Assembly: GCF_000012945.1 (NCBI RefSeq)
Contig: NC_007510.1
Coordinates: 3,286,001-3,350,000 of the forward strand
Origin: Burkholderia lata
GTDB lineage: Bacteria; Pseudomonadota; Gammaproteobacteria; Burkholderiales; Burkholderiaceae
DNA: 64,000 nt
Direction: 5' to 3'
In this document: positions 58,321-64,000 of the stretch, one piece after another
How positions within the stretch are numbered: the stretch's first letter is position 1
Layout of the letters: each line of letters begins with the position of its first letter
The notes under the pieces: model-generated
The model's database searches: none
Told to the model about the DNA's origin: nothing
What the model saw: the letters and a program-made list of their open reading frames with translations, nothing else
Made by a program: the position numbers and the translations under genes

Positions 58321-58421
58321 CTTTCCCCGCGCCACGCCGGCAAGCGCGCACCGATTCCTCCGATTCCCGCGGCATGCGGCCCCGAACGGCCGTCGTCCGT
58401 CTTGTTTACAGGAGCCTCGCC

Positions 58422-59471
58422 ATGTCGCTCGCCGTGGTGCGCAGTCGCGCGCCCGCCTCCGGCCGTGCGCCGGACGTCACCGTCGAAGTCCATCTCGCCA
58501 ACGGGCTGCCGTCGTTCTCGATCGTCGGCCTGCCCGATCTCGAAGTCCGCGAAAGCCGCGAGCGAGTCCGCGCCGCGCTGCAGAACTGCGGCTTCGAATT
58601 TCCCGTGCGCCGCATTACCGTCAACCTCGCGCCGGCCGACCTGCCGAAGGAGTCGGGGCGGTTCGACCTGCCGATCGCGCTCGGCATCCTCGCCGCGAAC
58701 GGCCAGATCCCGGCCGGCGCGCTGGCCGGCCGCGAATTCGCGGGCGAACTGTCGCTGACGGGCGCACTGCGGCCGATGCGCGGCGCATTCGCGATGGCCT
58801 GTGGGGTCGCGCGGGACTGGCAGTCTGCGGAAAGTGGCGCGGCTTCCGGTTTCGGTTCCGGCACGCTCTCCGGTTCAGGCAGCGGTGGCCAACGGGCCGG
58901 CCCGGAGGCGGGCTCCGCCGCTGCGTCGAACACCCCCGAGCTGTACCTGCCGCTCGCCAGCGCCGCCGAGGCCGCGCTCGTGCCGGGCGTCACCGTATTC
59001 GGCGCGCCGGACCTGCCCGCGCTGTGCGCACACCTCACCGATGCGCCGGACGGGCAGCTCACGCCGGTCGCCGCGCCGTGCCTCGACGACCTGCCGATGC
59101 CGGCCGCCCCCGATCTCGCCGATGTGGTCGGCCAGCGCGGCGCCCGCCGCGCGCTGGAAGTCGCGGCCGCGGGCGGCCATCACATGCTGATGGTCGGGCC
59201 ACCGGGCGCCGGCAAGTCGATGCTGGCCGCCCGGCTGCCGGGCCTCCTGCCGCCGCTGACCGACGACGAGGCGCTGACGTCGGCGGCGCTCCTCTCCGCG
59301 AGCCGCCTCGGCTTCTCGCCCGCGCAGTGGCGTCGGCGGCCGTTCCGCGCACCACATCACTCGTCGAGCGCCGCCGCGCTGGTCGGCGGCCGCAACCCGC
59401 CGCAACCAGGCGAGATCACGCTCGCGCACCTCGGCGTGCTGTTCCTCGACGAGCTGGAGGTTAGGTATTGA
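58422..59471 (+). pseudogene. comM: comM (YifB-type Mg-chelatase-like AAA ATPase), truncated by an island
   Basis: ComM is a hexameric branch-migration helicase needed to integrate transforming DNA. The N-terminal Lon-like domain is intact (VTVEVHLANGLPSFSIVGLP, FPVRRITVNLAPADLPKESG) and Walker A is GPPGAGKSM (about 260-268). A Ser/Gly-rich stretch of about 35 residues (about 146-180) is inserted within it. The protein then reads LGVLFLDEL, the start of Walker B, and continues EVRY-stop; the family continues DELPEF. The last about 150 residues, including the sensor and C-terminal domains, are absent, so helicase activity should be lost. CAGGAG precedes the ATG at 58422. The break lies at 59456/59457. 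Confidence 0.9.
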
Positions 59472-61450: not shown

Positions 61451-61557
61451 CTCGTCACACCCATGTGTCGTGCTGCCTCAAATCAACAATGCCTACCCTA
61501 CACAAATACGCTTGACTAACCAGTATCAGCATTCTAGATTGATCTCATATTTTAAAT

Positions 61558-64000
61558 ATGAGGTTGGCATTGGGCGACGAACTAGTTCCGGAGCAGGTCA
61601 AAGCTGCTCGCGCACTTCTGGCTTGGTCTCAGCAGGAGTTAGCCAGAAAGGCCCGCGTCGCCACATCGACAATCGCGGACTTCGAGCGTGGGGTTCGTAC
61701 GCCGGTAGCCAATAACGCCGAGGCCATCCGAAACGCCCTCGAAGCTGAAGGGCTTCAATTTGTTGCCGGCGGTGTTGTTGAAAAGAGCAGACTCCCGTCC
61801 TCCCCTCGAGCTGCGAGCCCGGGCGGATTGATGCGCTGGGTGAATGCAACAGACCTCTCCCAGTGGGGAGAGCGACGGGACGCGCAGGGCGCTATGCCGG
61901 AGCTGCTCCGCCGCTTGATTTTTGCGACGGTAGGGCCAGCCGCAGACGTCCGCTTCCCTTCGGACGAAAGCGTCCAGCACGGCGGATGGGACGGTCAGTG
62001 CATAAGCGATATCGGGGCGACCTATGTCCCAACCGGAAATTCAGCATGGGAAATCGGGACGCAACGCACAAGGATTAGCAAGAAAGCTGACGACGATTTC
62101 GAGAAGCGCACGAAGGACCCGCTCGGGCACGATCCTTCGCAAACGATCTTTGTCTTCGTAACGCCACAACGATTTCCCAAAAAGGATGACTGGATCGCGA
62201 AGCAAAAGGCACGCGGCGTGTGGAGAGATGTTGCGTTAATCGATGGCGACGATCTTGTGCATTGGCTAGAAATGTGTCCGGCAGTAGCACAATGGCTATC
62301 GATCAAGACAGGTCGTCGCCCCCAAGGACTGCGGACCCTGGAAGAAGTTTGGTCCGAATGGATCGGGGCGAGCACGATACCCATTACCACGGATGTGCTT
62401 CTTGCCGGACGTGATGAAGATCAGATCGCAGTACTTAGGTGGCTACGAGAACAGCCGCAGCTTCTTTCGCTGCAGGCAGACGACCCAGAAGAAGCAATGG
62501 CTTTCCTGTATGCCGCAATCAGTCCGCTGCCCGAGCACTACAAGTTGTGGCATTGGAGCCGCAGTGTTGTCGCTGAAAACAGTGATATAGCAAGGCAACT
62601 TGTCGGGCTCGGAACGCCGCTGAATATTGTCCTCTCCGATCCGGAACCCGGACTTGCGCAACGCCTGGTGGATGAGGGACATCACGTTTTCGCCGCATAT
62701 GGCTCCAGCACAAGCAACCATTCAAGCGGCATGCGACGGCTCCGTCGGCCATGGAAATTCGATCTCAAACTGGCGCTTGTCCAAGCCGGCATAGAAGAGG
62801 AAAACGCCCACGCGTATGCACATGCAGCGGGGCGAAGTATTACTGTACTGCGGCGGTTGAAACCCGCCGCCCCGCACCAGCAGCTTGAATGGGCAAAAAA
62901 AGCTGACCCGGCACTGATCGCGGCCATGTTCGCCGGGGCATGGGTGGGAACGTCAACACAAGATCAAAAGGTACTCAGTGAACTGGCTGACCGCCCGTAC
63001 GAGCAAATCGAGGAAGCCCTTATCCCGTTAGCGGCTTCGGCCGGCGGCCCGCTGGTTCGCTCGGGCGAACTCTGGAAAGTCGTGTCACTCCGCGATCTCT
63101 GGATGCAGCTCGGCAACAGGGTTACGCCAACCCAGCTAGACCGATTTGAACAGACCTTTCATAGGGTACTCGGTGCGGTCAATCCACGCTTCGCGACGCG
63201 CCCGAAGAGTATCTATTACGAAGCGGATGGCGAATTCGAGGAACAACCGTCTGCAGCGACCCGCAGTGGCCTGACGGAGGCAATGATCGCGATCGCCGTT
63301 CTTCCAGAGGGAGTTGCCTTCGCCCCCGATCTCCGGGGACGTGCCGACCGCGCAGTTCGCAAGCTCTTCGATAAGGCTGGGCCGTCCCTATGGTGGTCAC
63401 TTTCCGGCGACTTCATAAATCTGGCCGAAGCTGCACCTAGCGCGTTCCTGGATGCCATAGAAGCGGGCCTCGATGGAAATGCCCCACCGATCATGTCCCT
63501 GTTCCGTAGCGATGAAGGGATGTTACATCCCACGGAATACCTGTCGAACTTGCTATGGGCATTGGAGATACTGGCTCGAAGTCCGGATTACCTCGCGAAA
63601 TCCGCGCTGCTGCTCGCACGCCTCCATGAAATTGATCCGGGAGGAAAGTGGAACAACAGGCCTTTTGTTTCTCTTCGACGCATTTTTGTCAGTTGGTCTC
63701 CGCAGACGTACGCGACTCCCGCCGAGCGACTCAAGGTAATCGACACAATCACGCGACAACATCCGGCAGTCGGATGGTCACTCTTGCTGAAGCTGGCACC
63801 CAGTTTTCATGACGTGACGGAGCCTTCAGCGAAGCCCAAATGGCGCGATTTCACACCGGATAGGCGCGAAGAAATTACCGTGCAAGCACTCGGTGAAGCA
63901 GGCCGCAATATCGGCCAGCGTCTACTGCAGAACGTCGGAAATGATTTGGCGCGGTGGACTCAACTGCTGGATCACTGGCCGAATTTTGATTCCGAGTGGC
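61558..64000 (+). CDS. Very large HTH - nuclease-like - helical protein (3' end outside window)
   Basis: One frame is open from ATG 61558 to the window end, 814 residues and unfinished. Residues 13-67 form a Cro/C1 HTH (VKAARALLAWSQQELARKAR, then STIADFERGVRTPVANNAEA). About 110-255 looks like a PD-(D/E)XK-type nuclease region: D145 in HGGWDGQ, E165 in SAWEIGTQR, then ISKKADDDFEKRTKDP and FVFVTPQRFPKKDDWIAK. From about 270 a long helical part follows (DVLLAGRDEDQIAVLRWL, GMRRLRRPWKFDLKLAL, GRSITVLRRL). No Walker A is visible, unlike typical STAND proteins. AT-rich codons fit the island. Its family appears as large uncharacterised proteins in my memory; a defence role is inference. Confidence 0.7.
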   Translation, partial: MRLALGDELVPEQVKAARALLAWSQQELARKARVATSTIADFERGVRTPVANNAEAIRNALEAEGLQFVAGGVVEKSRLPSSPRAASPGGLMRWVNATDLSQWGERRDAQGAMPELLRRLIFATVGPAADVRFPSDESVQHGGWDGQCISDIGATYVPTGNSAWEIGTQRTRISKKADDDFEKRTKDPLGHDPSQTIFVFVTPQRFPKKDDWIAKQKARGVWRDVALIDGDDLVHWLEMCPAVAQWLSIKTGRRPQGLRTLEEVWSEWIGASTIPITTDVLLAGRDEDQIAVLRWLREQPQLLSLQADDPEEAMAFLYAAISPLPEHYKLWHWSRSVVAENSDIARQLVGLGTPLNIVLSDPEPGLAQRLVDEGHHVFAAYGSSTSNHSSGMRRLRRPWKFDLKLALVQAGIEEENAHAYAHAAGRSITVLRRLKPAAPHQQLEWAKKADPALIAAMFAGAWVGTSTQDQKVLSELADRPYEQIEEALIPLAASAGGPLVRSGELWKVVSLRDLWMQLGNRVTPTQLDRFEQTFHRVLGAVNPRFATRPKSIYYEADGEFEEQPSAATRSGLTEAMIAIAVLPEGVAFAPDLRGRADRAVRKLFDKAGPSLWWSLSGDFINLAEAAPSAFLDAIEAGLDGNAPPIMSLFRSDEGMLHPTEYLSNLLWALEILARSPDYLAKSALLLARLHEIDPGGKWNNRPFVSLRRIFVSWSPQTYATPAERLKVIDTITRQHPAVGWSLLLKLAPSFHDVTEPSAKPKWRDFTPDRREEITVQALGEAGRNIGQRLLQNVGNDLARWTQLLDHWPNFDSEW

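Follow-up and report, generated by a model that had tools for sequence, protein, structure and literature searches.

A STAND-like candidate immune nuclease of Burkholderia lata that very likely carries its own Kpn2I-type repressor

What is the task of a single protein of 1350 residues that joins a DNA-binding head to a nuclease-like domain and a long helical body? The question is raised by a gene at the right edge of a stretch of 64,000 nucleotides from the genome of Burkholderia lata (contig NC_007510.1, positions 3,286,001 to 3,350,000), here called the window. From the part inside the window, the original prediction proposed an open frame with a Cro/C1 helix-turn-helix (HTH) domain, a restriction-endonuclease fold and more than 500 helical residues, and suggested a new defence or conflict system. 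The frame is real, and its extension past the window gives the full protein (Table 1, where L002 and L003 are stretches of the source genome that continue downstream of the window; other L numbers mostly stand for loci of relatives). The interpretation is partly supported: on balance we favour an autoregulated, STAND-like immune nuclease that works independently of nucleoside triphosphates (NTP) and in which a single gene carries its own repressor. The protein is probably an anti-virus guard, with a putative anti-phage activity.

When the protein is scanned with Pfam, the sole match above cut-off is HTH_3 at residues 14-61, in agreement with the HTH predicted at 13-67. PADLOC matches are confined to the HTH, outside it no Pfam, NCBIfam or PADLOC profile covers the protein, and no description of the protein family was found among the matches listed in the open-licence PMC literature. 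An AlphaFold model of residues 1-813 (predicted local distance difference test score, pLDDT, 89.2; predicted template-modelling score, pTM, 0.86) has the Avs5 filament and Apaf-1 as its two best whole-model fold matches. Its nuclease domain has an alpha-beta-beta-beta-alpha-beta core, with the order of strands and helices read from the model, and conserved D, E and K; FokI, MspJI and the Avs4 nuclease are among its fold matches. E165 and K176 are separated by 11 residues and are not arranged as ExK. Of the more than 500 residues first described as helical, 256-440 are instead alpha/beta and AAA+-like and about 445-508 are winged-helix-like, and only the remainder is helical. A further model, of residues 434-1350 (L022; pLDDT 90.9), is helix nearly throughout and has ARM/HEAT-type fold matches. 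Sequence profiles against the PDB give HTHs for the N-terminal half (best E 0.00043) with other rows weak, including a designed ATPase at residues 268-366 (E 0.097), and for the C-terminal half designed repeat proteins (best E 0.00034) followed by weaker rows; the nuclease and AAA+ parts are detectable by fold alone, not by sequence profile. The succession of N-terminal effector nuclease, AAA+ fold and helical sensor-like part is the domain order of Avs/AVAST, and the model suggests a STAND/Avs-like build without a site for adenosine triphosphate (ATP).

Relatives were collected by a scan of a genome collection (84,980 species by the description of the tool), which gave 165, and the best 80 of these 165 loci were retained. 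They come from Proteobacteria, Actinobacteria, Cyanobacteria, Acidobacteria, Nitrospira, Planctomycetes and other lineages. An alignment of 85 relatives, which leaves out L061, L077 and L084 with their broken frames of less than 1150 residues, bears out D145 and E165 as the nuclease-like pair: D145 is kept in 98% and E165 in 100%, together with G167 (96%), K176 (100%), D180 (98%) and D229 (98%). The lysine-rich EKRTKD segment, which had been given the same role, is partly kept (K183 in 74%, R184 in 84%), but as a motif it is not fully conserved. At the place where a Walker A motif is expected, near residue 307 in the loop after strand 302-306, a Walker-A-like match occurs in 0 of the 85 aligned members, and the commonest residues there are A-D-S-x-D-E; the lack of a P-loop, first noted for 814 residues, thus extends to all 1350 and to the family. 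From the conserved nuclease residues and the absent Walker A it follows that the nuclease residues have been retained while the ATP site is gone. Fold and conserved residues are supported by comparison, and the domain would be expected to cleave DNA.

Avs/AVAST are the closest known systems, mainly the Avs4 nuclease and, for the overall fold, Avs5. The PADLOC library, which we take to include Avs models, matches the protein in the HTH only, so that there is no match to an Avs model. The HTH head is an addition compared with Avs, and, whereas Walker A is missing from the 85 members, Avs5 is reported to need both Walker A and Walker B (PMC12931631). A plain Avs member is ruled out by the absent Walker A and the absent model match.

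How expression of such a protein may be controlled is suggested by the DNA at its start codon. A 19-nt palindrome, CTCATATTTTAAATATGAG, begins 3 bp after the promoter TTGACT-17-TAGATT; on its better strand it agrees at 16/19 positions with the published C-box of Kpn2I, and it is unique within the 20-kb locus. With up to 3 mismatches it has a single place in the 8.68-Mb source genome, and the gene's own start is therefore the sole target found. The published C-box oligonucleotide includes ATCATATTAAAAATATGAC, and C.Kpn2I is reported to bind within the start of its own gene, where it blocks the elongating RNA polymerase (PMC6237814). In Xre-type members of the family, the region upstream of the gene holds a palindrome of 19 nt that covers the start codon or lies close to it; it is recognisable in 16 of 21, the Thalassospira member L027 among them, present as a half-site in L028 and in L029 from Rhizobium, and absent in L004 from Cupriavidus metallidurans, L037 and L106 (L030-L032 were dropped from the site counts). 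When the loci are scored with the published Kpn2I 19-mer rather than with a consensus drawn from the family, the locus maximum falls at -60 to +20 of the start in 18/21 Xre-type members and in 3/68 others, where L108 is counted among the 18 from a start moved 54 nt downstream once the site had been seen, and would be excluded by its annotated start. The two groups differ in score with a Mann-Whitney p of 2.5e-10, for sequences that are related and not independent. A further hold-out, L121, has a unique 15/19 match to the C-box at -14. Among all site tests, the Kpn2I test and the hold-outs are those that are independent of the site-defining sequences. A spacer of 5 bases, assumed in an earlier version of the operator, proved incorrect, and the 19-nt model takes its place. 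The comparison supports the site, to which the HTH is predicted to bind, and very likely the HTH represses its own gene.

Other members carry other heads, which Pfam, applied to ten of them, identifies as HTH_3 (HigA-like) and HTH_17/MerR. Genes with a HigA-type head have the site TGTAGCGCTACA: 20 of the 27 match it at 10/12 or better, as do 0/15 MerR-type, 0/17 Xre-type and 0/26 other members. L097 is included in the 20, since its sequence is HigA-type with an 11/12 site although it was automatically binned as 'none'; by automatic binning alone the count is 19/26. By our reading the site often seems to lie between -35-like and -10-like elements. Genes with a MerR-type head have the direct repeats TCCACAAAGTCCACAA, at no less than 14/16, in 10/15 members against 0/70 others, where the 15 include L056 (HTH_3 by Pfam), omit L044 and L046 (MerR-type in the tree) and contain several near-identical members. 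Both sites were derived from the same sequences that were later scored; the hold-outs L104 (11/12) and L124 (12/12), which are HigA-type and carry TGTAGCGCTACA uniquely in their own loci, are independent. No strong site was found in L122 and L123, two further loci without an HTH recognisable by eye.

In a tree of the bodies (80 rows, quick method, L006, L028, L030, L031 and L032 excluded), Xre and HigA form one supported group each, while the label changes needed are 4 for MerR, 6 for 'none' and 6 for all labels together. The simplest reading is that the HTH heads were gained separately, with losses also possible, and on more than one occasion lineages seem to have swapped controller and DNA site as a unit. 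Two members have N-terminal extensions on the same body, L056 with HTH_3 at residues 86-138 and L071 with a weak ProQ_C-like stretch, which may represent further head swaps. The MerR-type members L055, L057, L058, L060 and L065 are near-identical across three actinobacterial families (end branches 0.01-0.06), and this points to recent horizontal transfer.

The HTH of the B. lata protein shares 47% identity with C.Kpn2I, the two being almost the same in a segment around the recognition helix, and the likeness extends to the same C-box at the start of the own gene (PMC6237814). C.Kpn2I, however, is a small free-standing protein (99-residue chain 4yba) encoded next to methyltransferase and endonuclease genes, while here it is the head of a 1350-residue nuclease, and membership in a restriction-modification system, as for C.Kpn2I-type controllers, was not found: no methyltransferase is among the 10 distinct proteins, from part of the island frames, to which Pfam was applied. 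One chain doing both jobs has been reported for CR.NsoJS138I, a fusion of C protein and endonuclease (PMC3850674), but fusions of this type are PvuII-type restriction-modification enzymes, whereas here a STAND-like body follows the nuclease. Loss of catalysis in STAND NTPases is described for the iSTAND proteins of MoxR-vWA conflict systems (PMC7159879). These sit in ternary systems with MoxR and vWA, whereas the present gene is apparently a single-gene unit with nuclease and HTH, and neither a MoxR nor a vWA gene is among the same 10 proteins. The parts are already known; their combination, and the exchange of a repressor with its operator, appear to be new.

The body, too, is combined with different partners. 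By tblastn, 10 of 11 relatives on viral contigs match only from residues 406-453 onward; 7 of these 10 have a different N-terminus, which reads like a different PD-(D/E)XK nuclease (Pfam gave no match on that of L012), and 3 have a short leader only. On a Buttiauxella plasmid (L103:9576-12670) a related body is preceded by a gene for a 106-residue HetE-N protein (PF20701, E 1.5e-40). Because these relatives share only the C-terminal part, it is the winged-helix/solenoid body that stays constant, and this body is also found without the AAA+-like domain. In L012-L017 and L021 on viral contigs, and in L018-L020 and L103, a relative of the solenoid body is accompanied by a different partner, either another nuclease-like N-terminus or a separate small upstream gene, whose product in L018 and L019 ends in the motif QNHSGTGDNIG. 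A distant relative (24% identity over query residues 19-681) also occurs in the unannotated phage record MT837561.1:1930-3774 ('Bacteriophage sp.', 6622 bases, human faecal).

The gene is patchily distributed. It is present in 5 of 150 genomes of the host family, the source genome included, and among the 15 listed genomes of the same genus in the source genome only; a housekeeping gene is ruled out by this distribution. Coverage of 80% or more of the gene's in-window part is reached in 18 of 72,556 plasmid records, and 174 have some match, which may be to the HTH alone. Fifteen plasmid regions around the gene were examined, among them L004 without annotation and L010, L102, L103 and L104 without a control stretch. 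A restriction or abortive-infection (Abi) gene lies near the gene in 5 of 10 plasmids (L005, L006, L105, L107, L109), with AbiE, type I restriction-modification, SIR2 and Abi genes among those seen; none is annotated near it in L007, L008, L009, L106 and L108, and, counted in the same way, there is none in the 10 control stretches of the same plasmids. Among the control stretches, toxin-antitoxin genes occur in two, DNA methyltransferases together with an endonuclease in one, and a reverse transcriptase in one; a gene for a PDDEXK nuclease is found once on each side, in the home region of L009 and in the control L114. Among the regions that lack controls, L102 has Abi and superinfection-exclusion genes, and L010, L103 and L104 have toxin-antitoxin genes. 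The home regions span about 18-26 kb against 20 kb for the controls and the keywords were picked after reading, so the association is suggestive only. PADLOC, applied to 130 of the 257 nearest neighbour genes, matched AbiEi, mad3 and IIG in 2 members each, besides single hits; these figures cover 25 listed of 199 families matched and have no control, so they carry little weight. The 257 exclude six near-copy loci and proteins longer than 1100 residues, and the 130 exclude several short frames and everything from L078 on.

How could such a guard work? The Xre domain would bind the palindrome at the start codon, probably as a dimer, and keep expression low, either because initiation is blocked or because the bound protein is a roadblock to RNA polymerase, as reported for C.Kpn2I. 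By analogy with STAND sensors, the C-terminal winged-helix/alpha-solenoid body would sense an infection cue, the former ATPase core would act as a nucleotide-independent scaffold that links sensing to assembly, and the PD-(D/E)XK domain would then cut DNA and end either the infection or the cell.

The same features can be arranged differently. If the protein were a module for addiction, or for stabilisation of a plasmid or island, a cell that had lost the element would be killed by the nuclease, whose dose the built-in repressor would tune; the HigA-like and controller-like heads do resemble those of addiction and restriction-modification systems, and the gene occurs on plasmids and here within an island. 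Yet it is a single gene with no separate antitoxin or methyltransferase recognised, and a sensor-like solenoid of 900 residues exceeds what addiction needs, which makes this reading unlikely. Improbable, too, is a large transcription regulator that controls genes through its HTH and uses the nuclease-like and STAND-like parts, themselves inactive, for signal input, in the manner of the MalT-like STAND regulators. Such a role would accommodate the well-supported operator and the lost ATP site, but the operator occurs at one genomic place only, at the protein's own gene, and the nuclease residues are nearly invariant in the 85 relatives, though many of these lack the HTH or have another in its place.

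We give least credence to direct attack on modified foreign DNA by a restriction enzyme of Type IV-like character, whose solenoid would read the DNA. MspJI, a modification-dependent enzyme, is among the nuclease matches, and some of the matched HEAT-type proteins are DNA-bound (condensin, cohesin-Scc2); against this, no domain that reads modified bases is recognised and the domain order is that of STAND proteins. When the autoregulated immune nuclease is retained as the preferred reading, a wider proposal can be made, which we hold only tentatively and consider doubtful as a whole. In the usual view, it is nucleotide that switches STAND proteins of bacteria. The present family may instead be an NLR-like class without NTP switching, in which swappable cassettes of repressor plus operator, separately recruited before one nuclease/pseudo-STAND/solenoid body, are the off-switch; the operator-bound protein would be the inhibited resting state, and activation would free the promoter and boost the protein's own synthesis.

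In the source genome the gene belongs to an island, about 19 kb long, which interrupts comM, as originally proposed. The 5' part of comM is identified by TIGR00368 (Table 1), and a putative 3' part, assigned by reading the sequence, lies about 19 kb further on at L003:~660-1266. The island's in-window part has a G+C content of 0.558, against 0.672 for the preceding DNA of the window. Tyrosine-recombinase-like genes are found at its right end, at L002:15926-19998 (-) and L003:2-577 (-); of two that were scanned, one passes the Phage_integrase cut-off and the other is weak. A DUF4145/HEPN protein is encoded near this run, at L002:14753-15421. Where the island meets comM, no repeat longer than 8 nt was found that would define an att site. 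Directly downstream of the nuclease gene is that for a VPA1262-family protein of 1112 residues (L002:7784-11122; NF040699, 1050.7 bits).

Twelve island proteins or pieces were compared by tblastn (E up to 1e-5) with 98 related loci, limited to the DNA available for each, many of them short contigs. The small HTH protein of 113 residues matched, in L059 and L062, and nothing else did: VPA1262, comM, the recombinases and the two unknown proteins upstream were found in 0 of the 98. A conserved comM-island operon with VPA1262 and these two unknowns is thereby ruled out, and comM island and VPA1262 neighbour look incidental.

Table 1. Positions of the gene, its domains, its control elements and its neighbours in the window
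Feature	Residues	Position	Strand	Evidence or remark
Coding sequence	first 814 of 1350	61558..64000	+	stop 1610 nt past window edge; entire frame L002:3559-7611
Xre HTH of C.Kpn2I controller type	9-72	61582..61773	+	domain fold match
PD-(D/E)XK-like nuclease domain, D145/E165/K176	93-249	61834..62304	+	fold matches
Degenerate AAA+/STAND-like core without P-loop, with helical lid	256-440	62323..62877	+	model
Winged-helix-like part	~445-508	62890..63081	+	reading of the model's secondary structure
Start of alpha-solenoid (continues to 1350)	~510-814	63085..64000	+	model, ARM/HEAT-type matches
Sigma-70-like promoter TTGACT-17-TAGATT of the gene		61512..61540	+	promoter scan: 1 found, mean 0.2 in shuffles
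Putative operator (Kpn2I-type C-box) CTCATATTTTAAATATGAG, overlaps ATG		61544..61562	+	exact 8-base arms, 16/19 to published C-box
5' part of interrupted comM (YifB-type)		58374..59471	+	TIGR00368 E 3e-94, below curated cut-off as expected for a fragment
Small Xre HTH gene, island left end	113 aa	59672-60013	-	PADLOC 'control protein' models, best E 2.3e-17
Unknown protein	225 aa	60006-60683		no Pfam, NCBIfam or PADLOC match
Unknown protein	227 aa	60767-61450		no Pfam, NCBIfam or PADLOC match

What the family offers is a widespread lineage in which the ATP site has decayed and the nuclease residues are intact, so that firing of such receptors without NTP becomes testable. Its HTH heads point to a way in which a nuclease that is dangerous, and encoded by one gene, may stay quiet, namely by carrying its own controller along, and the known Kpn2I operator provides an immediate experimental handle in laboratory E. 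coli.
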